Below, one piece after another: positions 1,774 to 39,206 of a DNA stretch of 64,000 nucleotides; the first letter of the stretch is position 1; each line of letters begins with the position of its first letter. The DNA lies in contig JAICQO010000012.1 in assembly GCA_025937835.1 (NCBI GenBank), positions 1 through 64,000 of the forward strand. Direction: 5' to 3'. The notes beneath the pieces were generated by a model. It saw only the letters and a program-made list of their open reading frames with translations. It searched no databases and was not told where the DNA came from. The stretch comes from Polyangiaceae bacterium (GTDB taxonomy: Bacteria; Myxococcota_A; Polyangia; Polyangiales; Polyangiaceae). The position numbers and the translations under genes are program-made.

Positions 1774-4212
<2,439 letters not shown>

Positions 4213-5690: not shown

Positions 5691-5980
5691 CATTCCTCTG
5701 AGTTCCCGGACTGTGGATCGGCGAGTCCGGGACCGAGTAGGGGCAAAATGGCCCCCCGAGGGTTTCCGGTTGGATTTTTCTGCCCATAGGCGGGCGACGC
5801 GCGACGGATTGACGCGCGACGCCCCACTGCGAGCCCCTGAAAGTGGGTCATTGGGAAACACTCCTTAGTGCCGCCCGTGCCTGAATCTGCCCGGCTCGCG
5901 TCACTCTTCCCGCAACGGAATCACATCCGCGTCGATGGCAATTCGACGCGTCCCCTTGGCCAGCCACCCGAAAGGCCTCG

Positions 5981-6421
5981 ATGACACAAGCCCGCGCCAT
6001 CCTGAAACTACTCTTCTGTTTGATCGCGCTGTGCATTGCCACGTACGCGCCAGTGACCCACGGCGAGGAAGCCCAGCCGCTCGAGGTCACGGCAAAGCTC
6101 GTGGAGATCCCCTCCAAGTTCCCGCCGGATGATCTGTACGACTACGCCTACGTCATGCGTTACGAGGTGATCGGCGGCCCGATGGACAAGGCGCCGATCT
6201 TCGTCGCCCACTACAAGCCCCGCCGCCCGCGCTCGAAAATCGAAGGCAAGATGAAATCCTTCGTCGCCGGCAAGGTGCGGAGCTTCAACCAGGGGGACGT
6301 GCACAAGCTCAAGCTCTCGCCGGATCTGAAGAAGATCTGGAAAGGTCCGCTGGTCGACGAGTTCGCAGCGACCGACAAGAAGAGCGTTCGTTATTGGGCC
6401 TTGCTGGCTGATCCCGCGTGA
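5981..6421 (+). CDS. Small secreted protein of unknown function, first gene of the glycan locus
   Basis: 146 aa with an N-terminal signal peptide (LLFCLIALCIATYAPVTHG, probable cleavage before EEAQP). The mature part of about 120 residues has alternating charged and hydrophobic positions (predicted beta-rich) and a basic stretch YKPRRPRSKIEGK. I do not recognise the family. The start has AAAGG about 5 nt upstream. It opens a run of twelve same-direction genes, and its stop overlaps the GTG start of the next gene by 4 nt, so it should be translationally coupled to the outer-membrane barrel. A periplasmic or secreted accessory role in the locus is inference. Confidence 0.75.
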   Translation: MTQARAILKLLFCLIALCIATYAPVTHGEEAQPLEVTAKLVEIPSKFPPDDLYDYAYVMRYEVIGGPMDKAPIFVAHYKPRRPRSKIEGKMKSFVAGKVRSFNQGDVHKLKLSPDLKKIWKGPLVDEFAATDKKSVRYWALLADPA

Positions 6422-7488
6422 GCGTCTCCAAACAAAAACGCGCGAGCCGGCCCCCGCGCAAAGCCGGGTGGCTGTCTCCTCGATGGCTGCTGGCGATCTT
6501 CATCACCCTCGGGGCTTGCGCATTTTCTCCGCTGCTGGAGCGGGTCGCGCGCTCCGCATTGGAGCAACGCTTGCAAGCCGTCGCGGCCCGTGGCGCTTCG
6601 CCCGTCGAACGGCCGGCTCGGGTGTCGTTGCGAGTGGAGCAACTCGGGCCGCTGCTATCGAGCTGGGAGACGATCGGCGGCTGCGGTGCCGGGACCTCGT
6701 CCGGCGCCGGCGTGGGCGTGAAATGGATCGGCCGCAGCACGCGCGGCGGCCTGTTCAACGCCCAATTCATGGCCAGCTACCTCAGCTTCGACGAGGGCCA
6801 GAACTACACGAGCGGCTACAACCTGCTGCTCACGACGCAGCTCACGCGCGACCTGTCCGAGGACTGGAACGCGGGCGTGGTCGTGCCGTTTCTCTACAAG
6901 TACTACCGGGACTACTTCGACCTGGATCCGCCCGTGGACATGTCGAACGGCGGCTTCGGCGACATCAACCTGCTGCTCACCCGCAGGTTCGGTCCGATCA
7001 ACGCGACGGCCCTCACGCTGTCCGTCGGGCTACCCACGGGCACCTCCGACGCCACGTTCCGGAACGACCTCTTGAGCCAGGAGAAGCAACTCAGCCTCGG
7101 CCGGGCCACGGCTGGGCTGACGCTGGACCACACCTTCGACGAAGTCTGGGGGTTGATGGTGGCCGGCGCGAGCTTCAACTACCGGGGCGGCGAGAATGAC
7201 CTCGGTAGCTACCGTGCGCCGATGGCGAGCGCCTACTGGTATGGCGGCTATTTCCTGGGGCCGTTCGTGCCGTCGTTCGGGCTCTCCTTCACGCGCGCGT
7301 TCGGCTCGGACAAGGATCGCGGGCTCGAGCAGGAGACCGCGTTGAACATCGCGGCCGCGAACGCCGCGCTCGAGTGGTCGAACGACTACGTCGCGGTGCT
7401 AGCCGGCGGTTCCCTGCCCTACTCGCTGTTCGAGTTCGAGCAGCAGCCGTGGGTCGTGGCGCTCGGATTCTCCGTCTCCCCCTTCTGA
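6418..7488 (+). CDS. Outer-membrane beta-barrel protein
   Basis: 356 aa, GTG start in a GTGA overlap with the preceding gene. A basic N-terminus and one hydrophobic stretch (WLLAIFITLGACAF) serve as signal or anchor. From about residue 100 the chain is a series of alternating amphipathic strands rich in Tyr, Trp and Gly (for example NAGVVVPFLYKYYRDYF) and it ends in Phe (VSPF), the usual C-terminal signal for barrel insertion. It looks like the MetA/phenol-degradation-type or transporter-like barrels, about 12 strands. The place in the locus suggests a pore or surface element for a modified polysaccharide; this is inference. Confidence 0.72.
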   Translation: MSVSKQKRASRPPRKAGWLSPRWLLAIFITLGACAFSPLLERVARSALEQRLQAVAARGASPVERPARVSLRVEQLGPLLSSWETIGGCGAGTSSGAGVGVKWIGRSTRGGLFNAQFMASYLSFDEGQNYTSGYNLLLTTQLTRDLSEDWNAGVVVPFLYKYYRDYFDLDPPVDMSNGGFGDINLLLTRRFGPINATALTLSVGLPTGTSDATFRNDLLSQEKQLSLGRATAGLTLDHTFDEVWGLMVAGASFNYRGGENDLGSYRAPMASAYWYGGYFLGPFVPSFGLSFTRAFGSDKDRGLEQETALNIAAANAALEWSNDYVAVLAGGSLPYSLFEFEQQPWVVALGFSVSPF

Positions 7489-7491
7489 GCT

Positions 7492-9486
7492 GTGCGGATG
7501 ACCTGGCTCGCCTCGCCCGCCCCCCCGCGGTTCGCCCCGGCCTTTTACACGGCGCTGCTCGGGCTCACGGTGTTCCTGTGCGGCCTGTGCGCGTCGGTCG
7601 ACGGCGACATCTTCTGGCACCTCTCGGCCGGGCGCTGGATGTGGGCGGAGCGGGCGCTGCTCACGGTCGATCCGTTCTCTTCCGGCGCGGGAGGGCGGTC
7701 CTGGACCGACGTGCATTGGCTGTTTCAGCTCGGTGTTTACGCAGCGCACGCGCTCGGCGGGTTGCGCGGGCTGATCGTGCTGAAGGCCGCGTTGCTCGCG
7801 CTCGGCGTCGTGGTGCTTTCGTCCGCGGTGCGAGCGCGGGCCGGAGGTAGAGCCGCGCTGCTGTATGCGCTACTGGGGTCGGCGTCGCTGCTCGCGGCAC
7901 GCGAGTTCTTGCTGCTCCGCCCCGTGATCGTCAGCTTGCTGCTGCTCGCGGCCTTCTTTTACGTGCTCGAGCGCTTCCGGCGCGACGCGCGCTGGGCGGT
8001 GCTGGCGCCGCTGCCGCTGTTGCAGGTCGTCTGGTCGAACGTCCAGGGTCTCGCGCCGCTCGGAGTGGGGCTCGTGTCCGCCTACGCGGGCTCGTCTTTG
8101 CTCGTAGCGCGCTTCGGCCACTGCTCGTGGTTCCCCTTCGCTCGCGAAACCAAGGAACCCGAGAGCGCGCGACGCCTTGCCGTTGCGGCGGCCGCGGTCG
8201 CCCTCGCCTCGGCGATCACGCCGTACGGGCTCGCGGCGCTCGCGTTGCCGTGGCGCCTGTTCGGGCGTATCGCGCCCAACGCAGACGGCCTCTACGCGCT
8301 GAACATCGTCGAGAACGTGCCCCCGCTGGCGGTCGATCCGGCGTTGAACGCGCAGTTTTGGCACCTGAAGTGGTTCCTGGCGCTGGCCTTGCTCGCCCTC
8401 TCGCTCTCGCTCCGCCGGCTCGTCCTCAGTCAGCTGCTCGTGTTCGCGGGCCTGCTCGGGCTCGCGCTGCTGGCGAACCGCAACCTGCTTTTGTTCTACT
8501 GGTTGGGCGCGCCGATCGTCGCGCTCTGGCTGTCCGCGCCGCTGCGCCGCGCGGCGCTCTGGCTTCGCGACCGGCGCAGCGCGCGCGCAAGCGCGGTGTG
8601 GGGCGGGCGTGCAGCGCTGCTCGCGCTGACCTCGCTGTCGGGCGTGGTCGCGGCGCGTGAGCCGAGCCTCGACGCGCCCGCGCCGTTCCGCGTGCCGTCG
8701 AAGAGCGCCGAGCTCTTGCGCGGCCGACCGCCGGGCTCGGTGTTCGCGGCCGACCACTACGGCGGCTATCTGATCTGGACGCTGTTTCCCGCGCAGAGGC
8801 CGTACATCGACACGCGGCTCGTGCTGCGCTCGGCCGAAGAATTTCGAGAGTTCCTCGCGGTGATCGACGAGCCGCAGCGCTTCGACGCGTTCGACGCGCT
8901 TCACGGGTTCGGCGCGGTGGTGCTGCCCGCCGCGTTCCCGGATCGCTACCTGCCGCTGATCGCCCACCTGTACCGCCATCCACGCTGGAAGCTCGCGTAC
9001 ACCGACGGCAGCGAGGTGCTGTTCCTGCCGCGCGAAAACCCGGCCGAGCGCGGGGTGGAGCTCGGCGACGCGGCGACGCTGAGCTCGATCCGCGCCGAGC
9101 TCTCGGCGCGGTTCTCGGGCGAGCCGCGGATCGAGAGCGCGGCGCGGCGCTCGCTCGCGACGCTGGCGCTCTCGCTGTTCGAGTTCGACGCGGCCGAGCG
9201 CGCGTTGTCCGGTGACGACAGCCTCGAGGCCGAAGCGCTCCGGGCGCGAGCTCGGCTGCTCCGCGGCGACACGAAGGATGCCGAGCTGCGCGCCCGACGT
9301 GTGCTGGCGCAAAAGCCCGACGACGCCGGCAGCCTGAACCTGCTCGCGCTCGCGTCGCTCGAGCGCGGCGACCGCGACGGCGCGTTGAGCTTCCTTCGCC
9401 GCGCTGCGGACGCATCGCCCTTCGATGGAGAGACCGAAACACTTCTACGAAAGCTGGAGGTATCGGAACATGATCCGTCTCCCTGA
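7492..9486 (+). CDS. Polytopic GT-C-like membrane protein with C-terminal TPR repeats
   Basis: 664 aa. About ten hydrophobic helices fill residues 15-380. The first periplasmic loop has SVDGDIFWHLSAGRWM, an acidic loop-1 motif like those of GT-C (mannosyltransferase/ArnT-type) enzymes that use polyprenyl-linked sugars. A soluble region follows, and the last 110 residues form TPR-like helical pairs (LNLLALASLERGDRDGAL). The GTG at 7492 is two codons ahead of an ATG at 7498; either may be used. It sits 3 nt after the barrel gene and overlaps the next gene by 17 nt. Function as a glycosyltransferase is inferred from fold features only. Confidence 0.7.
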   Translation: MRMTWLASPAPPRFAPAFYTALLGLTVFLCGLCASVDGDIFWHLSAGRWMWAERALLTVDPFSSGAGGRSWTDVHWLFQLGVYAAHALGGLRGLIVLKAALLALGVVVLSSAVRARAGGRAALLYALLGSASLLAAREFLLLRPVIVSLLLLAAFFYVLERFRRDARWAVLAPLPLLQVVWSNVQGLAPLGVGLVSAYAGSSLLVARFGHCSWFPFARETKEPESARRLAVAAAAVALASAITPYGLAALALPWRLFGRIAPNADGLYALNIVENVPPLAVDPALNAQFWHLKWFLALALLALSLSLRRLVLSQLLVFAGLLGLALLANRNLLLFYWLGAPIVALWLSAPLRRAALWLRDRRSARASAVWGGRAALLALTSLSGVVAAREPSLDAPAPFRVPSKSAELLRGRPPGSVFAADHYGGYLIWTLFPAQRPYIDTRLVLRSAEEFREFLAVIDEPQRFDAFDALHGFGAVVLPAAFPDRYLPLIAHLYRHPRWKLAYTDGSEVLFLPRENPAERGVELGDAATLSSIRAELSARFSGEPRIESAARRSLATLALSLFEFDAAERALSGDDSLEAEALRARARLLRGDTKDAELRARRVLAQKPDDAGSLNLLALASLERGDRDGALSFLRRAADASPFDGETETLLRKLEVSEHDPSP

Positions 9487-10639
9487 TTATCTGAGCCGCC
9501 GAGCGATTCACCTGTCCGTGCTCGCGCTGACGATCGGCGCCTGCGGCGTGCAGGAACACGAGCAACCCCAGGAAACCAAGCTGGATACGCGGCCCAAGAT
9601 CGCCCCGCCGCCGCCCTCGACGGGCGGCATGACGGCCGGCCCGCCGGCGACGTCCGCCGGAGCCGGCGCGGGCGGCACGAGCTCGATGTCGGGCGGCGCT
9701 CCCAGCACGCTCGGCGGCTTCGGCCCCACCGCGGGCGGAATGGTCGCGGCGGGCGGCGGCGGCTCCGGCGGTATCCCGAGCGCGGGCGGCACGGGCGGTC
9801 TCGGGAGCTCCGGCGCACCGGCGACCGGCGGCGCCGCAGCGGCGACCGGCGGCAGCTCCGGGATCTTGGTCGACATCAACGGCACGATGCTGCCGAAGGA
9901 AGACGTGATCGGCTTCATCCACGTCGGGCACTCGAACATGGCCGGACGCACCGCGCGCCCCACCTCGGAGACCGCGTACTTCTTCGAAGACATCGACCTC
10001 CACGCCTGGATGTTCAAGAACGACCGCTGGGATCCGGCGCTCGAGCCCACGGCCGGAGACGCCGAGAACATGTCGTTCGGACGCGTGCTCGGCGGGCCGG
10101 GCACGGCGCTCGTGAAGCAAGCGGTCGCGCTCGCCCCCAACAAGTACTTCGTCTCGCTCGGCTGGGGCCGCGCTAGCGCGTACTGCTCGCAGTTTTTGCC
10201 CGGCGGCCTCTACTACGATCAGATGATCGCCGCGCCGAAGGCGCTGAAGGGCAAGATCACCTTCGCGGCCATCGTGGTGATGTTGGGCATCACCGAGCGC
10301 CACGGCACGTCGAGCGACATCAGCGCTTTCCCTCAGTGCGTGAATCAGCTAGTCACCGCCATTAGAAACGACGTCGGCGAGCCCAACTTGCCGCTGCTGA
10401 TGAGCGACTACGAAATGGAATCGACCGGGCGCGAGCTCGCGCCGGACGGCGAGTTCGGCAGCGCGATCATCCCGCAGATCCGCATGGTGCCGAGCGTGGT
10501 CTCCAACGCGGCGATCATCCCGACCGAGGACGTGGGCATGGAAGACGACCACCATTTCAACCTCACGGGTTATCGGACCTGGACCGGGCGCATTCTGTCG
10601 ATCATGCGCGAAAAGGGCTGGTTCCCCTGGGCACAGTGA
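9470..10639 (+). CDS. SGNH/SASA-type esterase lipoprotein
   Basis: 389 aa. The start at 9470 has GGAGG 9 nt upstream and gives a lipoprotein signal ending LTIGACG. Residues about 40-135 are a GG/GGxSG low-complexity linker. The catalytic domain resembles the SASA (sialate O-acetylesterase) branch of SGNH hydrolases: block I GHSNMAG (compare GQSNM), the middle conserved GITE, and block V DDHHFN with the Asp-x-x-His pair. A carbohydrate O-deacetylase is the likely activity. Placed directly before the MBOAT O-acyltransferase gene, it could trim or balance acetylation of the same glycan; this link is inference. Confidence 0.82.
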   Translation: MIRLPDYLSRRAIHLSVLALTIGACGVQEHEQPQETKLDTRPKIAPPPPSTGGMTAGPPATSAGAGAGGTSSMSGGAPSTLGGFGPTAGGMVAAGGGGSGGIPSAGGTGGLGSSGAPATGGAAAATGGSSGILVDINGTMLPKEDVIGFIHVGHSNMAGRTARPTSETAYFFEDIDLHAWMFKNDRWDPALEPTAGDAENMSFGRVLGGPGTALVKQAVALAPNKYFVSLGWGRASAYCSQFLPGGLYYDQMIAAPKALKGKITFAAIVVMLGITERHGTSSDISAFPQCVNQLVTAIRNDVGEPNLPLLMSDYEMESTGRELAPDGEFGSAIIPQIRMVPSVVSNAAIIPTEDVGMEDDHHFNLTGYRTWTGRILSIMREKGWFPWAQ

Positions 10640-10671
10640 GCCTCCGTTCGTTCTAGCCGCCTCGGTAGCAC

Positions 10672-12129
10672 GTGGTCTTTTCGAGCCAGATCTTCCTATT
10701 TTATTTCCTGCCCCTGGTGCTGGGGCTGTACTACCTCACGCCGTTTCGCGCGCGCACGCTGCTGATCGCGCTCGCGAGCTACGTGTTTTACGGCTGGGCC
10801 AACCCGCTCTGGGCCGTGATCATGTTCTTCGGCTCGAGCGTGGACTACGTCGCGGGCCGGCTGCTGCTGAGGCTGTCGGGCGTGCCGGACGAGGGCGGGC
10901 TGCCGCCGGTGATCGGGCCCGAGGTACCGCGGACGCGCGCCATGAAGGCCGTGCTCGTGACCTCGATCGTGATGAACCTGTCGCTGCTCGCGGTCTTCAA
11001 ATACACGGGCTTCGTCGCGGAGAACGTCAACGCGCTCGGGCGTGCGCTCGGGCTCGGGCGCGAGCTCTTGCCGGTGCTGCACCTGGTGCTGCCGGTCGGC
11101 ATCTCGTTCTACACGTTCAAGGCCATGAGCTACGTGATCGACGTGTATCGCGGCGAAGCCCGGCCGATGCGCGGGTTCACGGACTACATGTGCTTCGAGG
11201 CGTTCTTTCCGGACCTCGTGGCAGGCCCCATCATCCGCTACGCGGCGATCGAAGAGCAGATGCGCGTGCGCAGCCACACGCTCGACAAGTTCGCGCGCGG
11301 CGTCGCCTTCTTCTCGCTCGGCATGGCCAAGAAGATCCTGCTCGCGAACCCGATGGGCGACATAGCCGACGCCGCGTTCGCGGCTGGTCCGATGCGCGCG
11401 CACGACGCCTGGTTCGGGCTGTTCGGCTATGCGTTCCAGATCTACTTCGATTTCTCGGGCTACTCCGACATGGCCGTCGGGCTCGCGCTGATGCTGGGCT
11501 TCGTGCTGATCCAGAATTTCGACAGCCCCTACCGCGCCGAGAGCATCACCGACTTCTGGCGCCGCTGGCACATCAGCCTGTCCACCTGGCTCCGCGACTA
11601 TCTGTACATACCGCTCGGCGGAAATCGCAAGGGGCCGCTCCGCACCTACGTGAACCTGATGCTCGTGATGCTGCTCGGCGGCCTGTGGCACGGCGCGAGC
11701 TGGAACTTCGTGCTCTGGGGCGCGCTTCACGGCGGCATGTTGGCCGCGGAGCGCGCTGCCGGAAGGGGCGGACTCTACGGGCGCGTGCCGCGCTTCGTCC
11801 GGATCGGCCTGACCTTCGTCGTGGTCTGCCTGGGCTGGGTGTTTTTCCGGGCCGACACGCTCGGGACCTCGCTCGAATACTTTGCTTCACTGTTCGGCGT
11901 GGCCGACGTGAGCGGAGCCTCCGATGCCGTGGCAGGCGTTCTGTATACGCCGTACCACGCCTGCTTGTTCGTCACCGCCGCGGTCGTGGTCTGGGGCATG
12001 CCGACGACCTGGGCTTTCACCGAGCGGCTCTCGCTCCCGCGCGCCACGTCCGCGCTCGCGCTGCTGGGCCTGGCCGTGGTGCTGATGTGGACCCAGACGA
12101 CGAACCCGTTCCTCTACTTCCAGTTCTGA
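10672..12129 (+). CDS. MBOAT-family O-acyltransferase (AlgI-like)
   Basis: Membrane-bound O-acyltransferase that in alginate and related systems passes acetyl groups across the inner membrane to periplasmic SGNH transferases. 485 aa, GTG start, about 11 helices. Family signatures: FYGWANPLWA near 40, SFYTFKAMSYVIDVYRG near 145-161, FSGYSDMAVG near 261, DFWRRWHISLSTWLRDYLYI around 294-313, and the catalytic region LGGLWHGASW with His340 plus His353 in ALHGG. It is followed after 7 nt by an AlgJ-like gene, the standard MBOAT/SGNH pairing. Confidence 0.95.
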   Translation: MVFSSQIFLFYFLPLVLGLYYLTPFRARTLLIALASYVFYGWANPLWAVIMFFGSSVDYVAGRLLLRLSGVPDEGGLPPVIGPEVPRTRAMKAVLVTSIVMNLSLLAVFKYTGFVAENVNALGRALGLGRELLPVLHLVLPVGISFYTFKAMSYVIDVYRGEARPMRGFTDYMCFEAFFPDLVAGPIIRYAAIEEQMRVRSHTLDKFARGVAFFSLGMAKKILLANPMGDIADAAFAAGPMRAHDAWFGLFGYAFQIYFDFSGYSDMAVGLALMLGFVLIQNFDSPYRAESITDFWRRWHISLSTWLRDYLYIPLGGNRKGPLRTYVNLMLVMLLGGLWHGASWNFVLWGALHGGMLAAERAAGRGGLYGRVPRFVRIGLTFVVVCLGWVFFRADTLGTSLEYFASLFGVADVSGASDAVAGVLYTPYHACLFVTAAVVVWGMPTTWAFTERLSLPRATSALALLGLAVVLMWTQTTNPFLYFQF

Positions 12130-12136
12130 GGATCGC

Positions 12137-13453
12137 ATGAGCCGCCACGCTACCCAGGATCCGAGCACGCCGATCGCCGCGCACGTGGCCGGCCGCGGCG
12201 GGCCCACCGATCCCTCGCACGACGAGCGACTGCGGCGCGGGATCTTGTACACCGACGTGCGGCCGGGCGTCGCGCTGCTGCTCGTGGCGGCCTTCCTCGC
12301 GCTGATCGCGGCCATGCCGCTGCTCCAGCTCGGGCTCGAGAAAGCCAACGACGAGGAGCCGCTAATCCTCGGGCTCTTCGAGCACCTGCCGACCAACGAG
12401 CGGCTGCGGCAATTCGAGGACAGCCTCGAAGAGACCTCTTACGCGAAGAGCTACGTGCAGCCGAGGGCCCAGGCGCTGCTGACACGGTTCGGGCGCGCCG
12501 GCAACAAGAAGGCGGCGGTGGGCCACGAGGGCTTGCTCTACTACGTGCCGGGCATCACGCATGTCGCGGGCCCGGGCTTTCTGAGCTCGCACGCGATCGA
12601 CGGCCGCGAGCGCGGCGCGCGGCTCCGCGGCGGAGAGGTCCCGGCGGCCGATCCGCGGCCCGCGATCTTCGAATTTCGAGAGATGCTCGCCTCTCGCGGG
12701 ATCGAGCTCGTGCTGTTCCCGGTGCCGGACAAGGCGATGGTCGAGCCTCAGGGCCTGCACGCTCGCGAGGCTTCCCGGGTCGGCGCGCCGATCGCGAACA
12801 ACCCGGATTTCAGCGAGTTCGTCGGCGAGCTCCAGGCGCGGGGCGTGCGTGTGTTCGACCCCACTCCGAAAGTCCGCGCCGGCGAGCGCCGCTTCCTGCT
12901 GCAGGACACGCACTGGAACCCGCGCTGGATGGAGCAGGTCGCGCGGGAGCTCGCAGCCTTCGTCGCGCCCTCGCTGCCAGCCGCCCCTCTGCCGGGGTGG
13001 AAGCGCGTCGCCACCCGTGTCGAGCGCCTCGGCGACATCACGGACATGCTGAAGCTGCCTGAGCAACAGACTCTGTTCGCTGCCGAGTCGGTCACGCTCC
13101 AGACCGTGAAGAACGAGGACGACACGCTCTGGGAACCCGATCCGAAGTCCGACGTGCTGCTGCTGGGGGATAGCTTCACCAACGTCTTCTCGCTCGACTA
13201 CATGGGCTGGGGCGAGAGCGCCGGGCTCGCGCCGCAGCTGGCCTTCGCGCTCGGCCGCGGAATCGACGTCCTGGCGCAGAACGACGCGGGTGCGCACGCG
13301 ACCCGCAAGGCGCTCGAGAGCGAGCTCCGTGCGGGCGAAGCCCGGCTAGCGGGGAAAAAGCTCGTGATCTGGGAGTTTGCCGCGCGCGAGCTGTCGGTCG
13401 GCGATTGGAAGCACATCGACTGGTCGTTCGCTCGGCAGGGGGCCATGCCGTGA
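12137..13453 (+). CDS. AlgJ/AlgX-like SGNH O-acetyltransferase, membrane-anchored
   Basis: 438 aa type-II-like protein: basic cytoplasmic N-terminus, one helix at about 44-64, then a periplasmic SGNH domain of the alginate O-acetyltransferase class. The putative triad is visible: Asp257 and His259 in LLQDTHWN and Ser346 in LLLGDSFTN. The N-terminal part of the domain has GHEGLLYY, the usual entry motif of this class. It is predicted to take acetyl from the MBOAT partner and transfer it to a polysaccharide. Its TGA overlaps the GTG of the next gene (GTGA). Confidence 0.9.
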   Translation: MSRHATQDPSTPIAAHVAGRGGPTDPSHDERLRRGILYTDVRPGVALLLVAAFLALIAAMPLLQLGLEKANDEEPLILGLFEHLPTNERLRQFEDSLEETSYAKSYVQPRAQALLTRFGRAGNKKAAVGHEGLLYYVPGITHVAGPGFLSSHAIDGRERGARLRGGEVPAADPRPAIFEFREMLASRGIELVLFPVPDKAMVEPQGLHAREASRVGAPIANNPDFSEFVGELQARGVRVFDPTPKVRAGERRFLLQDTHWNPRWMEQVARELAAFVAPSLPAAPLPGWKRVATRVERLGDITDMLKLPEQQTLFAAESVTLQTVKNEDDTLWEPDPKSDVLLLGDSFTNVFSLDYMGWGESAGLAPQLAFALGRGIDVLAQNDAGAHATRKALESELRAGEARLAGKKLVIWEFAARELSVGDWKHIDWSFARQGAMP

Positions 13454-14409
13454 CCTCGTGGGTGCTCGTCACCGGCGCGGGCGGCGTGCTCGGGGAGCGG
13501 CTCGTGCGCGGCCTTCTCGGGCGAGGTTACCGCGTGCGCGGCCTGGTCCTGCCGTCGGACCCGGCTCGGGCGCGCCTCGAAGCGCTCGGCGCCGAGGTCG
13601 TCGAGGGGGACGTCTCGCGCGCGGACACGCTGCGCGGCGTCGCGACGGGCGTCGATACCGTGTTCCAACTCGCCGCGGTGATTCTTTCTCCCGAGCCGAG
13701 CGTGTTCCCGCGCGTGAACCGCGACGGCACGGCGAACGTGCTGAACGAAGCGCGAACCGCCGGCGTGTCGCATTTCATCTACGTCTCTTCGGCATCGGTC
13801 ACGTATCCCAAGCTCACACCGTACGCCCAGTCGAAGCTCGAGGCGGAAGAGCTGGTGCGTCGCGAGTCGGCCCTGGCCTGGACCATCGTTCGCCCGACGC
13901 TCGTGTACGACGAGCACGGGGGGCAAGAGTTCGTGCTCTTCCGGGAATACCTCGAGCGCTGGCCGTTGGTGTTCTTCATCGGCGACGGCAAGGCCAAGAA
14001 GCGCCCGGTGCTGAGTGACGATCTGGTAACCGGGCTGCTGGCGCTGCCGGACGCCGAGGTCAGCCACGGCAAGGTCTACAATTTCAGCGGCGGCGAGTCG
14101 ATTTGCATGCGTGAGCTCGCCGAGCTCATGCTGCTCCATCGCGGGATGCGCCGGCGCTTCGTGCACGTCCCCGTGCCGCTGTGCCGCGCGCTCGCATGGC
14201 TGCTCGGCGCCGTGCAGCGGCGACCGCTGCTCACCCCGAGCTCGATCGCCGGCATCGTCCACGACGCCGACCTCGATCCGTCCGAGGCGACGCGCGAGCT
14301 CGGGTACCGGCCGCTCGGGGTACGCGCGGGTTTCGCGCGCTGTTTTCCATTGGTCGAGGGCCGCCGAGCCGCAGCCCTCGTCCGCGACATCCAAAGGAAC
14401 GAAGCATGA
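13450..14409 (+). CDS. NAD(P)-dependent epimerase/dehydratase (extended SDR)
   Basis: 319 aa, GTG start in a 4-nt overlap; an upstream in-frame ATG (13405) would lie inside the previous gene and precede the Rossmann strand, so it is not used. Nucleotide-binding TGAGGVLG (10-17 region), DVFQLAA-type strand, active-site Ser in YVSSAS and YAQSK as the YxxxK pair. It resembles nucleoside-sugar epimerases and 3-beta-HSD-like SDRs. The substrate is unknown; the neighbours argue for a nucleotide- or lipid-linked sugar. The next gene overlaps its stop (ATGA). Confidence 0.86.
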   Translation: MTSWVLVTGAGGVLGERLVRGLLGRGYRVRGLVLPSDPARARLEALGAEVVEGDVSRADTLRGVATGVDTVFQLAAVILSPEPSVFPRVNRDGTANVLNEARTAGVSHFIYVSSASVTYPKLTPYAQSKLEAEELVRRESALAWTIVRPTLVYDEHGGQEFVLFREYLERWPLVFFIGDGKAKKRPVLSDDLVTGLLALPDAEVSHGKVYNFSGGESICMRELAELMLLHRGMRRRFVHVPVPLCRALAWLLGAVQRRPLLTPSSIAGIVHDADLDPSEATRELGYRPLGVRAGFARCFPLVEGRRAAALVRDIQRNEA

Positions 14410-15440
14410 ACCACGATTTTCTCGGCAAAGGGCTGCTCCTCGCTTTCGCTCTCGGCAGCCTCGCGGGCTGCGGTGCCCTGTCCGGCGCACCGCCGAAGGG
14501 CTCCGAGGAAGCGCCCGAGCAAGAAGAAGCCGCGGCGATGCGCGCGATCGGAGCCAAGGTCCCCGGCACCATCGTCTGGTCGAGCTCGCGCATCGGGAAT
14601 CACGACCTGTTCACGATGAAGACCGACGGCACCGACGTGACAGCGATCACCAAGGGCGACGAGGTCGACTGGTTCCCGCGCTTCTCCCCCGACGGCTCGA
14701 AGATCCTGTTCTCGCGCAGCAAGAAGGGCTGGGTCAGCGAGCGGGACGCGAACGACAGCGACAAGTGGGACGTCTACACGGTGAACCCGGACGGCTCGGA
14801 GCTCGTGAAATGGGCCGAGAACGCCAGCTGGGCGAGCTGGGTCTCGAACGACGAGATCGTGTTCGTCCGCGGCAGCAAGATCCTGCGCAAGAAGGGCACG
14901 GACGGAGCAGAGACGGAGCTGATGGACGGCAAGGGCGTCTCGGAGCTCGACGGCGCGCTGTTGCAGCAACCGGGCCTGTCCGCAGACGGAAAGTTCATCG
15001 CGATCACGCTGCGCGGCTCGATGCGCGAGACCGGCATCTGGGACATCGAGAAGAAGACCTGGACCAAGACCGGCCTCGGCTGTCAGGTCGCCTGGACCCC
15101 GGACGGCTCGGAAATTTACTGGGTGAACCCGAGCGGAAACGGCGGCAGTGAGGTGTTTCGCATGCCGATCGCGGACGGCAAACCTCAAAAAGAGCTCTCC
15201 GACGACGAGCTCGCGTTCATGGACCTGCCCGGGCGTCGTTCGCACGAGTACTTCCCGCAGCTCTCGGCGGACGGCAAATGGCTGGTGTGGGGGGCTACGC
15301 AGCGCGGCCACGACCACGACATCGCCGATTACGAAATTTATCTGTGGGAGGTCGGGACGCCGGCCGAGCGCGCGGTGCGGCTCAGCTACCACTCCGGGAA
15401 CGACCGCTGGCCGGATCTCTTCATCTCGGGCGCTCGATGA
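14406..15440 (+). CDS. PD40/TolB-like beta-propeller lipoprotein
   Basis: 344 aa with signal LAFALGSLAGC (lipobox LAGC) followed by a short acidic linker. The rest is a set of WD40-like PD40 blades, seen as repeated motifs such as RFSPDGSKILFSR, NPDGSELV, LSADGKFIAI, TPDGSEIYWV and LSADGKWLVW. Such propellers bind proteins or glycans in the periplasm. No enzymatic motif seen. Coupled to both neighbours through ATGA overlaps, which ties it to the glycan enzymes; it may be a scaffold. Confidence 0.85.
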   Translation: MNHDFLGKGLLLAFALGSLAGCGALSGAPPKGSEEAPEQEEAAAMRAIGAKVPGTIVWSSSRIGNHDLFTMKTDGTDVTAITKGDEVDWFPRFSPDGSKILFSRSKKGWVSERDANDSDKWDVYTVNPDGSELVKWAENASWASWVSNDEIVFVRGSKILRKKGTDGAETELMDGKGVSELDGALLQQPGLSADGKFIAITLRGSMRETGIWDIEKKTWTKTGLGCQVAWTPDGSEIYWVNPSGNGGSEVFRMPIADGKPQKELSDDELAFMDLPGRRSHEYFPQLSADGKWLVWGATQRGHDHDIADYEIYLWEVGTPAERAVRLSYHSGNDRWPDLFISGAR

Positions 15441-16540
15441 GCTCCGCCACGCCGCGACGGATCGCCGTGCTCGGCGCGGGCGGGTTCATCGGCTCGCACC
15501 TCGTACCGGCGCTGCTCGCTCGCTTCGATTGCTCGGTCGAGGCCATCGACACGGACCTGTCCAAGCTCGGCGCGCACGATCCGCGGCTCCAGCGCCGCCT
15601 GTCTCGCATTCAGGAGCCGGGCCTGATCGACGACGTCGCGCGCCGCTCTGACCTGATCGTCTCGCTGACGGCGCTGTGCACGCCGGCGCTCTACAACACC
15701 GATCCGCTGGCGGTGATCGACGCCAGCTACAACGATCTGGTCCCGGTCGTCCAGAGCGCCGCCCGCGAGCGGGCGCGGCTCATCCACCTCTCCACCTGTG
15801 AGGTCTACGGGCGCCGGGCGCTCGATCTCGAGGGACGCGCCATGGAGCGCATGAGCGAGCACGAGACCGCGCTGTTTCTCGGTCCGGTCGATCGCGAACG
15901 CTGGACCTACGCCTGCGCGAAGCAGCTGCTCGAGCGTGTGATCTGGGCCTACGGCTCGCGCGGTGAGCTCGATTTCACGATCGTGCGGCCGTTCAACGTG
16001 GTCGGGGCTCGCATGGACTTCTTGCCGGGCATCGACGGGATCGGTGTACCGCGGGTGCTGGCCTCGTTCATGAACGCGTTGCTCCGGGACCAGCCGCTCG
16101 AGTTGGTGGATGGCGGCCGGCAGCGCCGCTCCTTCATCGCCGTCGAGGAGTTCGTCGAGGGGGTGGTGCGGATCGTGGCGCGGCCTGAGGTCGCGAACGG
16201 TCGTATTTTCAACCTCGGCAACCCTCGGAACGACGTCAGCATCCGCACGCTCGCCGAGGAGCTCGCGAGCGCCTACCGCGCCCGCGAACCCGGGGCACGC
16301 TTCGCGGGGTTCCGCGAGGTGAGCGCCGAAAGCTTTTACGGCCCGGGTTACGACGACACGAGCGAGCGCATCCCCGAGCTCAGCCAGGCCGAAGCGCTGC
16401 TCGAGTTCCGGCCCAGCGTGACGCTCTCGGAGATGCTGCCCGGCATCATCGACGACTACGTGCGGCGCTATGCCCCGCGGATCGCCCTCGCCAGCGCCGA
16501 CGCCGCGCCGGCGCCGCAGAGGGAGGCAGTGCTCGCGTGA
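15437..16540 (+). CDS. ArnA-like NAD-dependent UDP-sugar decarboxylase/epimerase
   Basis: 367 aa extended SDR most like the dehydrogenase/decarboxylase domain of ArnA (UDP-glucuronate C-4'' decarboxylase). Features: GAGGFIGSHL near 13-22, STCEVYG, RWTYACAKQLLERVIWAYG containing the Tyr-x3-Lys pair, RPFNVVGARMD, and near the C-terminus SERIPEL, whose Arg aligns with the ArnA catalytic Arg region. The active-site Ser of the ArnA STSEVYG motif is Cys here while the Glu is kept. The formyltransferase domain of ArnA is absent. Start chosen at the ATGA overlap. A UDP-pentose or 4-keto-pentose product is inference. Confidence 0.86.
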   Translation: MSSATPRRIAVLGAGGFIGSHLVPALLARFDCSVEAIDTDLSKLGAHDPRLQRRLSRIQEPGLIDDVARRSDLIVSLTALCTPALYNTDPLAVIDASYNDLVPVVQSAARERARLIHLSTCEVYGRRALDLEGRAMERMSEHETALFLGPVDRERWTYACAKQLLERVIWAYGSRGELDFTIVRPFNVVGARMDFLPGIDGIGVPRVLASFMNALLRDQPLELVDGGRQRRSFIAVEEFVEGVVRIVARPEVANGRIFNLGNPRNDVSIRTLAEELASAYRAREPGARFAGFREVSAESFYGPGYDDTSERIPELSQAEALLEFRPSVTLSEMLPGIIDDYVRRYAPRIALASADAAPAPQREAVLA

Positions 16541-17259
16541 GCCTCGCGATCGTCCTCCCGGCCTTCGATGCGGAGCGCCACCTCGGCCAGGTGCTCGACC
16601 GCATCGCGCAGACGGCGTTGCCCGAGCTGTCGGCGATGATCGTGGTGGACGACGGCAGCCACGACGGCACGCGCGCTCTGGCCGAAGCTCGCGCCCGAGC
16701 CGACTCGCGGCTCGAGCTCGTGGTGCGCCCGCGGAACGGCGGCTACGGCGCCGCGATGAAGGACGGGCTCACGCGCGCCCGCGAGCGCGGCGCCCAGCAC
16801 GTCGCCTGTGTGCACGCCGATGGCCAATACAGCCCCGAGGCCCTGCCGCGGCTGCTCTCGATCCTGCGAGACCAGCAGCTCGATCTACTCCAGGGCTCGC
16901 GCATCGCCGGCGGAGGCGCGCTGTCCGGCGGGATGCCCCTTTACAAGCTCGTCGGCAACGCCCTGCTCAATCGCCTCGAAAATCTCACGTTGGGGCTCGG
17001 ATTCAGCGACTACCACAGCGGGTACCTCGTCTACGGCCCACGCGCCCTGTCGACGCTGCCCTTCCGGAGCTTGTCGGACAGCTTCGACTTCGATCTGGAG
17101 GTGCTGGCCTCTGCGCGCGCGCGCGGCCTCGCGGTCGCCGAAGCGCCGATCCCGACGCACTACGGCGACGAAGTCTCCCACCTGAACCCGCTCGGTTACG
17201 GCCTGCGCGTGCTGCGCGTCCTCTACAACTATCGCCGAGGCTCGTATGATCCGATTTGA
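16537..17259 (+). CDS. Family 2 glycosyltransferase (polyprenyl-phosphate sugar synthase type)
   Basis: 240 aa GT-A fold enzyme: IVLPAFDAERHL at the start, VVDDGSHDGT near 30-40, NGGYGAAMKDG near 68-78 and the metal-binding HADGQYSPE near 92-100, followed by LLQGSRIAGG. This pattern matches dolichyl/undecaprenyl-phosphate mannose or ArnC-type synthases, but without the C-terminal membrane helices. It probably makes a lipid-linked monosaccharide at the inner membrane. GTG start overlaps the ArnA-like gene stop; the next gene starts 14 nt before its end. Confidence 0.9.
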   Translation: MSLAIVLPAFDAERHLGQVLDRIAQTALPELSAMIVVDDGSHDGTRALAEARARADSRLELVVRPRNGGYGAAMKDGLTRARERGAQHVACVHADGQYSPEALPRLLSILRDQQLDLLQGSRIAGGGALSGGMPLYKLVGNALLNRLENLTLGLGFSDYHSGYLVYGPRALSTLPFRSLSDSFDFDLEVLASARARGLAVAEAPIPTHYGDEVSHLNPLGYGLRVLRVLYNYRRGSYDPI

Positions 17260-19294
17260 GCGCACCGCCGCTGCATTGGTCCTGTCGTGTGTGGGGCTCG
17301 CGCTCTCCTGCGGGCGGGGCAACGCGCGTTTCCCATGGCCGGCCGAGGCGAACACCCTGCCGAGTGAGCACGCCGAGGTCAGCACCCTGAATCCGGGCTA
17401 CTCGCGGCTGAAATCCCGCGTCCTCGTGCGCGAGGTAAAAAAGCCGACGCGCGCCGCGCTCGACTACGCAGCCTACCACCAGAATTTCATGATCTCGGAT
17501 CCCGAGCCCGAGGGTCTGGCCGAGGCCACGCAACCCCCGGACGTGGCCAGGCCGTTCGATGGAGCCGTAGACCAGAAGACAATGACGCCGGACCTCCAAG
17601 CCACGCCGCTGAGCGAGGCGGAACGAGGTCGGCCGCTGTCGGTCGCGCCGCTGCTCGAGTACCTCGCCGCCTCGAAAGTCGAGGGCGTCGACGCCCTCGA
17701 GGAGCTCGCGAGCAGCGTTCGCGAAGAGTCGTGGGGTCTGCCGACGCAGCCCGGAGTCATGACCCAGAGCGCGAGCGAGCTGTATCTGCACGAGGCGGGG
17801 AACGCCCCGCCCGAGCTGTGGCTGAAGATCGAGTTTCAGCCCTGGTTTCAGGGCCTCGGGCGCTTGCCCGACCAGGACGGCGATGGTTTTCCCGAGGTCT
17901 ACGCGCGCGCGAGCCAGGCCTCGCTCACGCCGGAGCTAATCGGAGCAATCCGCGACGACTACGCCGGCAAGCTGCTCGGTCCGGAAGAGGTGAAGAGCTG
18001 GGCGAACCGCCTGGCTTCGTACTGGTACCCCTCGTTCAACACCGATCTGGTTCCGCCCTCTGCCACGTTCCCGGACGCGAGCACCGAGCCCGAGATCAAG
18101 GCCGAGCTCGAAGGCCGAGTCTACGAGAAGCCGACGATCGTAATGCGCGGCAAGCCGCAGGGCGTGCCGACCTACGCGGTCTTTTTGGTGCGTGAGGCCG
18201 GCGCGGCCGGCAGCGCAGGCGACAGCAAGGACCAGAACCAGAAGCCCCTGGCTCTCCCCAAAACCAAGCCGAGCCCCTCTGCGGCCGCGCTGCGGCCCGT
18301 GCTCGAGGCGGAGGTGGCGGCGCATGGCGGTTCGTACGAAGCCTGGGCCAAGGAGCTGGCGCCGCTCCACGAGCGGATCCGCGAGCGCCTCCGCAAGACC
18401 CCGAAAGCCGTGAAGGCGCTCGAGGGCAACGACGGGTTCTTGTTCTTCAGGCAGAGCCTCTCGTTCGTGGTGAGCGGAGACATCGAGCGCCAGCGCCGCG
18501 GCAAGAACCCGATGCCCGTGATCGTCGAGTTCAAGCGAGAGCTCGAGGCCCGCGGCGTGGATTTTCTGTTCGTGCCCGTGCCGACCAAGGCCGAGGTCTT
18601 CCCGGATCGCCTGGACGAGGCCGGCAAGGCCCTCGTCGGCAAGCCGATTCAGCCTTATTTCCGCAAGTTCCTCGCGAGTTTGTCAGCGGCCGGCGTCGAG
18701 GTCGTGGATCTGCTGCCGGCATTCCTCGCCGCCCGCCGCGAAAAGGCGAGCGGGCTCGAGCCCATCTACCAACGCCAGGACACCCACTGGACCGACCGCG
18801 GTCTGCGGATGGCGGCAGAGCTGCTCGCGACGCGCCTGAAGAAGTACCCGTGGTACACGGCGCTCGGGCCCCACGCCCGCCGCTACTCCGTGAAGGAGAC
18901 CTCGTTCGAGCGCTTCGGCGATCTGCACTCGCGGCTACCCGAAGCCAGAAAGAGCAAGTACCAGCCGGAGAAGCTGCGCGCCGAGCAAGTGCTCGCGCCG
19001 GGCGGCGGCTTCTACGAGGACGACGAGCAGAGCCCGATCGTGGTCCTCGGTGACAGCTACACGGGCGTCTATCAGCTGATGGACGCCGAACACGCCGGGC
19101 TGTCGGCTCACCTCGCCCGAGCCGTCGGCTACCCGGCGGACCTGGTGATGAGCTATGGCGGCGGCCCGAACGTGCGCAACAAGCTGCTCCGCCGGGGCAA
19201 GGAAGCGCTCGAGACCAAGCGGCTCGTGATCTGGGTGATGACGGCGCGCGATCTGTACGACTACTGGGAAGATTGGGAGCCGCTCGGGCCGTGA
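17246..19294 (+). CDS. Large AlgX/AlgJ-like SGNH lipoprotein with long N-terminal extension
   Basis: 682 aa. N-terminal signal with lipobox-like ALSC (Cys22). Residues about 25-385 are not recognisable as a known domain; a stretch near 320-345 is Lys/Pro rich. The C-terminal SGNH domain begins at GNDGFLFF and holds the predicted triad Asp512 and His514 in QRQDTHW and Ser604 in VLGDSYTG. It is the second protein of this class in the locus, as AlgX is to AlgJ. The extension could bind the polymer. Overlaps upstream by 14 nt and downstream by 4 nt. Confidence 0.87.
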   Translation: MIRFERTAAALVLSCVGLALSCGRGNARFPWPAEANTLPSEHAEVSTLNPGYSRLKSRVLVREVKKPTRAALDYAAYHQNFMISDPEPEGLAEATQPPDVARPFDGAVDQKTMTPDLQATPLSEAERGRPLSVAPLLEYLAASKVEGVDALEELASSVREESWGLPTQPGVMTQSASELYLHEAGNAPPELWLKIEFQPWFQGLGRLPDQDGDGFPEVYARASQASLTPELIGAIRDDYAGKLLGPEEVKSWANRLASYWYPSFNTDLVPPSATFPDASTEPEIKAELEGRVYEKPTIVMRGKPQGVPTYAVFLVREAGAAGSAGDSKDQNQKPLALPKTKPSPSAAALRPVLEAEVAAHGGSYEAWAKELAPLHERIRERLRKTPKAVKALEGNDGFLFFRQSLSFVVSGDIERQRRGKNPMPVIVEFKRELEARGVDFLFVPVPTKAEVFPDRLDEAGKALVGKPIQPYFRKFLASLSAAGVEVVDLLPAFLAARREKASGLEPIYQRQDTHWTDRGLRMAAELLATRLKKYPWYTALGPHARRYSVKETSFERFGDLHSRLPEARKSKYQPEKLRAEQVLAPGGGFYEDDEQSPIVVLGDSYTGVYQLMDAEHAGLSAHLARAVGYPADLVMSYGGGPNVRNKLLRRGKEALETKRLVIWVMTARDLYDYWEDWEPLGP

Positions 19295-20109
19295 GGCGCC
19301 GCACGCTGCTCGCGCTGCCCGCAGCCCTCGCTTGCAGCCGCCCCGAGCCGCGCCAAAGCTCCGGCGACCCGTTGCTCGCGATCGGCGCCGAGCTCGGCGA
19401 AATCGACGCGGCTGACCAAGCGTTCGCGAGCGCCGAGCTCGCGCGGATCGCCAGCCGCGCCCGAGACGCGCTGCGCGTCACGAGCGAGCCGCTCGCGAAC
19501 CAGATCGCCCGGTTGAGCCGGCTGCTCTTCGAGGAGCTCGGCTTCGAGCGCGAGATCGAATCGACCGCGCTCTCGTTCGTGCTCTTACCGCTCGTGCTGC
19601 GCAGCCGCCGCGGGAGCTGCGTCGGGCTCGGGAGCCTGTACCTCGCGCTCGCGCCGCGGCTCGGGCTTTCGCTCTCGGGGGTGTTGCGGCCAGGGCACTT
19701 TCACGTCCGCGCTTCGGGCGCCGGAGCGCCTTCGAATTTCGAGCTGTTGCGCCGGGGCGAGCTCATGCCCGAAGACTGGTACCGGACCAAGTACCCGGCG
19801 AGCGCTCGAGCGCGCGCCTACGGACGAGCGCTGACGACGGCCGAGGTTCGCGGCGTGGTCGCGTTCAACGTCGGCAACGAGCGCCAGCGACAACGGCAAC
19901 TGGAGCCCGCGCGTCGCGCCTACCAGCGCGCCGTCGAGCTGATCCCGGATCTGGCCGAAGCACACGCGAGCCTCGGCGCGGTGCTGCACCTTTTGGGCGA
20001 CCTCGAGGCCGCCGAACAGGCCTATGCCAATGCCCGCCGCGTCGATCCCGAGTTGAAGGGGCTCGCGAACAACCTTTCGCTCTTGGAACACGAACGGGGC
20101 GCCCGCTGA
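19291..20109 (+). CDS. SirB1/transglutaminase-like lipoprotein with TPR tail
   Basis: 272 aa, GTG start in a GTGA overlap. Lipoprotein signal LLALPAALAC. Residues about 60-165 match the SirB1 N-terminal transglutaminase-like region, with the Cys in RRGSCVGLGSLYLALA and His in LRPGHFHVR that would form the Cys-His pair. Residues about 185-265 are TPR repeats (AEAHASLGAVLHLLGDLEAA). Last gene of the 12-gene run; 11 nt separates its stop from a convergent gene. Catalytic activity is not certain. Confidence 0.8.
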   Translation: MRRRTLLALPAALACSRPEPRQSSGDPLLAIGAELGEIDAADQAFASAELARIASRARDALRVTSEPLANQIARLSRLLFEELGFEREIESTALSFVLLPLVLRSRRGSCVGLGSLYLALAPRLGLSLSGVLRPGHFHVRASGAGAPSNFELLRRGELMPEDWYRTKYPASARARAYGRALTTAEVRGVVAFNVGNERQRQRQLEPARRAYQRAVELIPDLAEAHASLGAVLHLLGDLEAAEQAYANARRVDPELKGLANNLSLLEHERGAR

Positions 20110-20120: not shown

Positions 20121-21278
20121 CTACTGGTCCATGTTCTTTTGCTGGATGTTCCAGCCGTCGTCGGTGCAGAGCTTGCACGAGGCGCCGTAGAACCAGGAGC
20201 GCAGCGAGTCGTCCGCCATCAGGTGCACGCGCATCCACGCCGTGACCGCGGCGTAAACCGGGCTCGGCGTGCTGCCGCGGCTCATCCAGCTGCCGTGATC
20301 GGCGCTGATGTACTCCGCATACATGGCCGGCAGGTCCGTCACTGAATCGAGCGCGTTTTGCGCGCCGTCGCAACTGACGATGTCGTCCATTCCGCCGCAG
20401 AAGAACATCGCCGGACCGTGGAGGTTGCGCTGCGGCATGGCTCCCTCGATCGGCACATTGGTGGTGATGTGGCTGTCGCCCGACGCCTGGCTCGTGGCCA
20501 CGGCACCCTGCGAGTGCCCGGTCGCGCCGATGTGCGTGACGTCGAGGTGATGGTAAAGCGGGCTCGCCGGATCCTCGTTCTGCTCGAGCATCCATTCCAC
20601 GCCGACCACCATCGGCCTCGGGTTGCCGCGCGCGACGTTCTTACTGTTCGAGGCGATCACTACGAAGCCGTGCGAGGCGAACAAGTTGAGCAGCGAGCCG
20701 TAGAGGTTCGGCGTCGAGCCCGTGCCGTTGCCCCAGGTGATCACCGGATGACAGAGCCCGTTCGGGCTCAGTTCCTTCGGCCTGAACAACGTGAATTTCG
20801 GCACGACGCCGTCTTCGGCCTCGCCCGCCTCCGGGCCCACTTCGTTTTCGGTGACGGTCTCGTACGGTCCCTTTGCGGCGGGATCGGCGGCGGGCCAGGG
20901 CCCCACCGTGCAGCCGCCGGGTGTCGAGACCGAACCCCCCTGCGCGGTCGAGCCGCCGCTCTGCGTGCTGCCCGCGCTGGCGCCTCCGGGCGGCGGATTG
21001 CCAGTGCCGCCGCGGCCCGAGCCGCTGGCTCCACCGCTCACCGAGCCGCTGGCAGCGCCCTCCGGAGTACTGCTGACTCCGCCGAAGCTGCTAGCGCCTC
21101 CCGTCGCGCTCGCGACTAGGCCTCCGGTGTTGGCAAGCCCTCCGCTCGCTGCGCCGCCGCTGGGTGACGGAGGCGGCGCCGGAGTTTCGCCGTCTGCGTC
21201 CGAGCTCCCGCAGGCCGCCACCAGCGCCGCGCCAAGGACAATCGCGTGAGCGGCGAAATTTTTCGTGGATTTCGACAT
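20121..21278 (-). CDS. Secreted alpha/beta-hydrolase lipoprotein (polyester/chlorophyllase-like)
   Basis: 385 aa. Lipobox LVAACG near residue 20, low-complexity GGASSGG linker to about 120, then a cutinase/PET-hydrolase- or chlorophyllase-like alpha/beta-hydrolase: nucleophile in ATGHSQGA, acid region in CGGMDDIV, His in SADHGSWM. An oxyanion-side segment is WGNGTGS. It ends with a Cys pair GASCKLCTDDGW. GAGG 6 nt before ATG supports the start. It shares the linker style but not the C-terminal signature of the CE1-like paralogues nearby, so it is a separate subfamily. Substrate unknown. Confidence 0.84.
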   Translation of the reverse strand: MSKSTKNFAAHAIVLGAALVAACGSSDADGETPAPPPSPSGGAASGGLANTGGLVASATGGASSFGGVSSTPEGAASGSVSGGASGSGRGGTGNPPPGGASAGSTQSGGSTAQGGSVSTPGGCTVGPWPAADPAAKGPYETVTENEVGPEAGEAEDGVVPKFTLFRPKELSPNGLCHPVITWGNGTGSTPNLYGSLLNLFASHGFVVIASNSKNVARGNPRPMVVGVEWMLEQNEDPASPLYHHLDVTHIGATGHSQGAVATSQASGDSHITTNVPIEGAMPQRNLHGPAMFFCGGMDDIVSCDGAQNALDSVTDLPAMYAEYISADHGSWMSRGSTPSPVYAAVTAWMRVHLMADDSLRSWFYGASCKLCTDDGWNIQQKNMDQ

Positions 21279-28937: not shown

Positions 28938-29870
28938 GTGCGCGCTGTCTTTTTCGGGACCCCCCAGATCGCCGTGACCGCGCTGCGTGCGCTGACGCGG
29001 ATCGCCGAAGTCGTCGGCGTGGTGTGCCAGCCGGATCGGCCAGCTGGCCGCGGTTTGTCGCTGAAGGCGCCCGAGGTGAAGCTCGCCGCGCTGGAGCTCG
29101 GGCTCGAGGTGACGCAGCCGACGCGCGTGCGTGACGGCGCGCTCGAGGCGTGGCTTCGCGAACGACGGCCGGACGTCGCGCTCGTGCTCGCCTACGGTCG
29201 GATCTTGCCGCGCGGCGTGCTGGATGCGCCGGCGCGCGGCTGCGTCAATCTGCACGCTTCGTTGCTGCCGGCGTACCGCGGCGCCGCACCGATCCAGTGG
29301 TCGATCATCCGCGGCGAGACGGCGACCGGCATCTCGCTGATGCAGATGGACGAGGGCCTCGACAGCGGCCCAGTCTATCTGAAGCGCTCGCTACCGATCG
29401 GACCGGACGAGACCTCGGGCGAGCTCGCGGCGCGGCTGGCGGAGCTCGCCGCCGAGGTCACGCTCGAGGCGCTGTCCAAGGTCGTGAGGGGCGAGCTCGC
29501 GGCCGAGCCGCAAGACGAAACGCGCGTCACGTTGGCGCCGCCGCTCGAGCGCTCCCACGGCATCATCGATTGGAGCCAGTCGTCGCAGAGCATTCACGAC
29601 CTCGTTCGCGGGCTCTCTCCGCGGCCGTCGGCGTTCACGACCGCGGCCGGACAGCGGTTGCGTGTCGCAGCGACGCGGCTCGCCTCGCCCGTGCCCGTGC
29701 TCGAGCCGGGCACGGTCCGCGTCGAGCGCCCGCGCGTGCTGGTCGGCACCGGCGACGGCGCGCTCGAGCTCGTGCGTGCCCAGCTCGAAGGCAAGCGCGA
29801 GCTCGTCGCGCTCGACCTCGTGAACGGCCGGGCCCTCGCCGACGCTCAGGTGCTCGGCGGAAGCAGCTGA
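28938..29870 (+). CDS. fmt: Methionyl-tRNA formyltransferase
   Basis: Transfers formyl from 10-formyl-THF to initiator Met-tRNA for translation initiation; cytoplasmic. 310 aa, usual length. N-terminal formyltransferase fold: VFFGTPQIAV, AYGRILP, the folate/catalytic region NLHASLLPAYRGAAPIQW with catalytic Asn-His, then GISLMQMDEGLDSGP. The C-terminal OB-fold tRNA-binding domain starts near residue 205 (IIDWSQSSQSIHDLVRGLSP). GTG start. The usual partner def (peptide deformylase) is not adjacent; the next gene overlaps its stop by one base (TGATG). Confidence 0.95.
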   Translation: MRAVFFGTPQIAVTALRALTRIAEVVGVVCQPDRPAGRGLSLKAPEVKLAALELGLEVTQPTRVRDGALEAWLRERRPDVALVLAYGRILPRGVLDAPARGCVNLHASLLPAYRGAAPIQWSIIRGETATGISLMQMDEGLDSGPVYLKRSLPIGPDETSGELAARLAELAAEVTLEALSKVVRGELAAEPQDETRVTLAPPLERSHGIIDWSQSSQSIHDLVRGLSPRPSAFTTAAGQRLRVAATRLASPVPVLEPGTVRVERPRVLVGTGDGALELVRAQLEGKRELVALDLVNGRALADAQVLGGSS

Positions 29871-39153: not shown

Positions 39154-39206
39154 GGCTGGCCGCGCCGTTTACGCCGGGAAAGCCAGCCGACCGCCGCCGC
39201 CCGCAA

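Follow-up and report, generated by a model that had tools for sequence, protein, structure and literature searches.

Twelve genes at positions 5981-20109 of the window, the 64,000-nucleotide stretch of Polyangiaceae DNA analysed here, form a compact and conserved locus. Our best reading, which we place slightly above even probability, is that they are a portable cassette for the synthesis and acylation of an envelope glycoconjugate that contains a pentose. In this scheme g9 would convert UDP-glucuronate to UDP-apiose and/or UDP-xylose, and g10, which is translationally coupled to g9, would place the pentose on polyprenyl phosphate. On the periplasmic side, g3 would then move the lipid-linked sugar to an envelope acceptor. 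The MBOAT protein g5 could use its C-terminal Tyr482 to pass a cytoplasmic acyl group, probably acetyl, to g6 and g11, the SGNH proteins that would esterify the glycan. The esters could be removed by g4 or a GDSL hydrolase, and g1, g2, g8 and g12 may act as envelope partners. The whole set would behave as a cassette, with its gene order kept at different sites in the chromosome and, in this genome, a place between lon and fmt. The lack of a flippase in the locus counts against this reading.

All twelve genes lie on the + strand and are tightly packed. Re-reading the sequence confirms the six 4-nt overlaps named in the original prediction (g1/g2, g6/g7, g7/g8, g8/g9, g9/g10 and g11/g12), and the overlaps that it gave as 14-17 nt are those of g10/g11 (14 nt) and g3/g4 (17 nt). 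Short gaps separate g2/g3 (3 nt), g4/g5 (32 nt) and g5/g6 (7 nt). Start positions were corrected for g4 (9470), g7 (13450, GTG), g8 (14406), g9 (15437) and g12 (19291, GTG). A weak promoter/terminator scan finds one sigma-70-like promoter inside the unit against 0.9 expected, which is no excess.

Pfam bears out the domains proposed earlier, namely SASA (g4), MBOAT (g5), two AlgJ/AlgX-like SGNH proteins (model ALGX in g6 and g11), two extended SDRs (g7 and g9) and a GT2 (g10). It also identifies PD40 in g8 and Transglut_core2 with TPR in g12. The g8 propeller lipoprotein and the g12 domain pair with its lipobox were absent from the earlier reading, and a clear lipobox is present in four proteins (g4, g8, g11 and g12). 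Among the 12 cassette proteins, the scan, which covers the locus only, finds neither a Wzx/Wzy flippase and polymerase nor an alginate or cellulose polymer synthase, in agreement with the statement that synthase, polymerase and flippase are absent from the locus.

Several of the proteins are likely to lie in or near the envelope. The first gene, g1 (5981..6421), encodes a family-less exported protein of 146 aa that is highly conserved (up to 80% identity) and always found near the cluster. The product of g2 (6418..7488) has an N-terminal hydrophobic segment and resembles an outer-membrane barrel, a prediction made from sequence only; in most lineages the cluster includes an orthologue of it. 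Neither g1 nor g2 matches a Pfam or NCBIfam model. The protein encoded by g8 (14406..15440) is a PD40/TolB-like beta-propeller lipoprotein, and the g12 lipoprotein (19291..20109) combines Transglut_core2, with conserved C110 and H136, and TPR repeats. The extended SDR encoded by g7 (13450..14409) keeps its YxxxK motif and is a putative sugar reductase or epimerase.

The product of g9 (15437..16540) was originally called ArnA-like. That it is a sugar SDR holds, but it is nearer to UDP-apiose/UDP-xylose synthases and has their catalytic cysteines. Its best PDB match is Arabidopsis AXS1 (6h0n; 282 bits vs 197 bits for ArnA), with identities of 41% to AXS1 and 33% to ArnA. In a tree, the cluster g9 proteins form a single clade (99/99) beside AXS1, apart from ArnA and UXS, and the fork that parts AXS1 and cluster g9 from ArnA has moderate support (86/78). 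ArnA was rejected as the nearest label for g9 on the basis of these bit scores and this placement. The 367-aa g9 protein also differs from ArnA in having one SDR domain, no formyltransferase domain and the AXS cysteine.

Window g9 has equivalents of all six of AXS Cys100, Cys140, Glu141, Arg182, Tyr185 and Arg341 (C81, C121, E122, R155, Y158 and R311), and we take the five beyond Cys100 to have roles in catalysis as well. In cluster-type g9 homologues the Cys100 equivalent is present in 27 of 27 (23 complete alignment rows and four further), while the Cys140 position varies, with 20 homologues having Cys, four Ala (Sorangium, G279 and G283) and three Ser; rows L143 and L144 are repeats of loci already counted in this tally. 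ArnA carries Ala where AXS has Cys100, and the aligned ArnA crystal form has Ala at the Cys140 position, where the wild-type enzyme presumably has Ser. The clade and the catalytic residues suggest that g9 makes UDP-apiose and/or UDP-xylose from UDP-glucuronate, and UDP-glucose-dehydrogenase-family proteins encoded elsewhere in the genome could supply this substrate. Members in which Ala or Ser replaces Cys140 may make only UDP-xylose.

With g11 as the signature of carriers, a full or contig-split copy is found in 15 of the 193 genomes sampled from the class. AXS-like proteins scoring >220 bits occur in 15 of these 15 carriers and in 3 of the 178 non-carriers (Fisher p = 1e-19, uncorrected for relatedness). 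Among the three exceptions, G028 has cluster genes on fragments, G008 has a g9-g10-g7 trio and one is solitary. In G188, a UAS-like gene stands alone outside the cassette, with an aminotransferase-like gene after it (L136:9489-12784). The G008 locus (L135:9586-15826) is a reduced version whose UAS-like enzyme has Ala at the Cys100 position. Its trio is accompanied by a PMT_2 and TPR GT-C protein and a PD40 protein, and acylation genes are not nearby. The GT-C protein there is a different one, and this arrangement provides an independent link between a UAS-like enzyme, a GT2 and a GT-C.

The GT2 encoded by g10 (16537..17259; 240 aa) resembles the polyprenyl-phosphate sugar synthases PpgS, DPM synthase and ArnC. 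It contains no hydrophobic segment and lacks membrane helices, whereas ArnC has them at its C terminus, and a His replaces the first Asp of the DPM synthase DxD motif. Its family points to pentose transfer onto polyprenyl phosphate as the probable reaction. UDP-apiose is chemically labile, so tight coupling between g9 and g10 would suit such a pathway.

The candidate GT-C enzyme g3 (7492..9486, starting at 7492 or 7498) matches no GT-C family in Pfam, and a sequence search against solved structures gives only TPR matches among the matches listed. A structure prediction was therefore made. With the resulting AlphaFold2 model (pLDDT 83.5), g3 matches GT-C enzymes overall at VIA Z scores of 15-26, including 26 to STT3A, 22 to PglB, 17 to PMT and 17 to ArnT. 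The match spans about 340-484 residues and is followed by the TPR domain. The original GT-C call is thus upheld by predicted structure despite the lack of a Pfam match. While g3 appears to share its fold with STT3/PglB, PMT and ArnT, sequence identity in the structural alignments is ~10-13%, and g3 differs from these enzymes by its C-terminal TPR domain and by having no Pfam GT-C family. Six residues are invariant (D39, H43, H75, R143, E274 and N275). D39 corresponds to the conserved acidic residue of the first periplasmic loop, and we infer that it is catalytic. If the predicted fold is correct, then g3 may act on the periplasmic side, where a lipid-linked sugar would serve as donor for some acceptor. 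The match to the model is one of fold only, not of acceptor or donor, and an STT3-like fold could also mean transfer of a lipid-PP-oligosaccharide.

The grouping of a UDP-GlcA-decarboxylase-type SDR with a polyprenyl GT2 and a GT-C recalls ArnA/ArnC/ArnT. Pfam finds no ArnB aminotransferase among the 12 cassette proteins, however, and the acylation module is extra relative to Arn lipid A modification.

This module centres on g5 (10672..12129), an AlgI/PatA-type MBOAT with His340 in a WHG motif that is conserved in the alignment. Its C-terminal sequence FLYFQF, which includes Tyr482, conforms to the acyl-shuttle motif FXYXXF; in PatA, the Tyr of this motif becomes acetylated (PMC12148441). The form F[LI]YF[QRI]F is found in 19 of 20 aligned rows, and the exception lies at the end of a contig and seems to contain a frame error. 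The D-H-S triads are intact in both g6 (12137..13453; D257, H259 and S346), an AlgJ-like membrane-anchored SGNH acyltransferase, and g11 (17246..19294; D512, H514 and S604), a lipoprotein in which an uncharacterised N-terminal domain precedes an AlgJ/AlgX SGNH domain. The predicted fold of g11 matches AlgJ (Z 25) and AlgX (Z 22) over the SGNH domain; the N-terminal domain, searched as part of whole g11 only, has no convincing fold match. The product of g4 (9470..10639) is a SASA-type carbohydrate esterase lipoprotein that keeps the GHSNM serine motif and DxHH. These motifs and triads are consistent with an acyl relay that would run from g5 to g6 and g11.

Such a relay would resemble alginate AlgI-AlgJ-AlgX and PatA-PatB in the catalytic His and C-terminal FXYXXF shuttle Tyr of the MBOAT and in SGNH partners with a D-H-S triad and the AlgJ/AlgX fold. 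It differs from these systems in that g11, a lipoprotein, has an additional N-terminal domain and in that the genes are tied to sugar-nucleotide and GT-C genes. In contrast to alginate and cellulose loci, the cassette has no synthase, polymerase or export porin. Both the lipid-linked-sugar logic and the pairing of an AlgI-type MBOAT with AlgJ/AlgX-type SGNH proteins in the original prediction are supported.

Variant MBOAT/AlgX operons occur at L035:2697-8719, L037:2194-6061 and L046:941-6976. In all three, the MBOAT operon also encodes an acyl carrier protein and an LnmK-like acyltransferase/decarboxylase, and in L035 and L046 a ligase and another carrier protein lie opposite. The window cassette is without the carrier-protein and LnmK-like genes of this group. 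Because these genes stand beside the MBOAT gene, a group other than acetyl may be transferred there, and the donor is likely to be ACP-borne and possibly non-acetyl. Of the earlier description as an envelope-glycan acetylation locus, acylation is supported, but acetyl is an assumption in view of this one related group.

The gene-order comparison suggested at the outset reveals strong synteny. At g11 loci, the neighbours g5-g12 follow one order, with g1 and a g2-g4 module nearby. The window order g1-g12 is kept in Sorangium cellulosum So0157-2, in a second Sorangium genome and in the congeners G279 and G283. Families further away in Myxococcota retain the majority of the genes, in some cases as two opposed units. 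In L033 and L034, from other families, g2-g4 is divergent from g5-g12, and in L065 the genes are divided between two convergent operons, a GDSL hydrolase adjoins the GT-C gene and the SASA protein is not seen at the locus. Diverged sets are present in Fibrobacterota, in one Chitinivibrionales genome and one Fibrobacter genome. The 4-nt overlaps of g9/g10 and g11/g12 are kept in 14 of 15 and 9 of 12 loci, respectively, with the window counted in each case. Since they persist between proteins of ~45-65% identity, these overlaps are beyond chance. A reading in which the orthologues are merely scattered is ruled out by the synteny. The prediction of one expression unit fits the gene layout here and in Polyangiaceae but not in the other families, where g2-g4 is a separate opposed module; the operon therefore appears to be a fusion of separable modules.

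The position of the cassette varies. In the window, lon (1774..4212, - strand) and fmt (28938..29870, + strand) are separated by a 24.7-kb insert that contains the cassette, whereas they are ~280 bp apart in the congener G187 and adjacent in four further family genomes. The insertion rests on one MAG contig. Contamination of this contig was ruled out; lon is 93-94% identical to that of G187, which argues that the contig is genuine, and both flanks are those of the family. Within the order, only 5 of 184 genomes have the cassette. Its location in the other four is either distant from lon or on a separate contig; G279 and G283 have a site in common, and the flanks in the two Sorangium genomes differ from that site and from each other. 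Transfer of the cassette is the simplest reading of the site, tree and identity data. Vertical inheritance with repeated loss and rearrangement seems to us improbable. It would fit the grouping of the window copy with other Polyangiaceae copies in a concatenated-core tree, though that placement has a support of only 71%. Against it, the same tree groups the G279 and G283 copies with Sorangium at 100% to the exclusion of the window copy, the cluster proteins of congeners are 47-76% identical while their Lon proteins are 92% identical, and the lon-fmt site is empty in relatives.

The same 24.7-kb insert contains esterases with Gly/Ser/Thr-rich linkers that flank the cassette on both sides. Three are PHB-depolymerase-like (4518-5861, 21358-22605 and 22837-24012), and one resembles a PET-hydrolase-like family (20121-21278). 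A DUF1552 and DUF1592/1595/1588/1585/1587 gene pair (24059-26997) is also inside the insert. Elsewhere in the window, at 38230-43530, is an inositol-phospholipid-like locus with myo-inositol-1-phosphate synthase, a CDP-alcohol phosphatidyltransferase and inositol-phosphate cytidylyltransferase-like proteins, one of them fused to a HisC-like aminotransferase.

The pentose and its acceptor can each be read in more than one way. A more specific version of the best reading, which we offer tentatively, is a dedicated bacterial apiosylation pathway in which UDP-apiose would feed polyprenyl phosphate directly and then a new TPR-tailed GT-C that modifies an envelope acceptor, with MBOAT/SGNH acylation; the cassette would have spread in Myxococcota and diverged in Fibrobacterota. 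The same machinery could instead produce an acylated xyloside or keto-pentoside and no apiose, if the g9 product is UDP-xylose or UDP-4-keto-pentose only. Known UDP-apiose synthases yield UDP-xylose too (PMC5607165), in several g9 members Ala or Ser replaces the Cys140 equivalent, and a U4kpxs-type NCBIfam model scores 254 bits on g9, below its cut-off of 294. We nonetheless consider this restriction unlikely: AXS1 is the closest solved relative of g9, and all cluster members have Cys100, which ArnA lacks and which PMC12820599 describes as key for proton transfer and ring opening.

With regard to the acceptor, two readings are compatible with the best one. The GT-C may be a protein or lipid glycosyltransferase, so that the locus would be a protein O-glycosylation or glycolipid system and the acyl groups would go onto the glycoprotein or glycolipid rather than a polymer. 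The top fold matches of g3 to oligosaccharyltransferases and protein mannosyltransferases, its TPR domain and the lack of a polymer synthase in the locus all favour this possibility, to which we assign less than even probability, as GT-C folds are silent on the acceptor and ArnT matches as well (Z 17). Somewhat unlikely in our estimation is decoration of an exopolysaccharide made elsewhere, in the style of alginate or cellulose acetylation, with the sugar genes giving side chains. Such a role would agree with the occurrence of the AlgI/AlgJ/AlgX set together with an outer-membrane-type protein and with the presence of two SGNH proteins, as in alginate (PMC4148444). However, no link to a synthase is seen in the loci read, and the cassette moves without one.

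Apiose was long held to be plant-only. The two papers in which UDP-apiose synthases were discovered in bacteria report that the flanking genes are not conserved and give the role of apiose as unknown (PMC5607165, PMC6193724). By their description, the published bUAS are thus set apart from the enzyme here, with no conserved operon in contrast to a conserved 12-gene cassette. The X. pisi system has a GT90 apiosyltransferase and a GT2 xylosyltransferase, and acylation or GT-C genes are not reported for it. A search of the open-access literature for apiose together with Sorangium or Myxococcota found no paper on the topic. The parts of the cassette are each of a known kind, and the open-access literature searched yielded no account of them together as a conserved cassette. 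A UDP-apiose-synthase-like enzyme occurs here in a conserved, translationally coupled pathway of the cultured genus Sorangium, together with a candidate sugar transferase, a GT-C and acylation enzymes. The pathway would give the MBOAT/SGNH acyl relay a new setting, and its presence in cultured Sorangium makes bacterial use of apiose or xylose directly testable.
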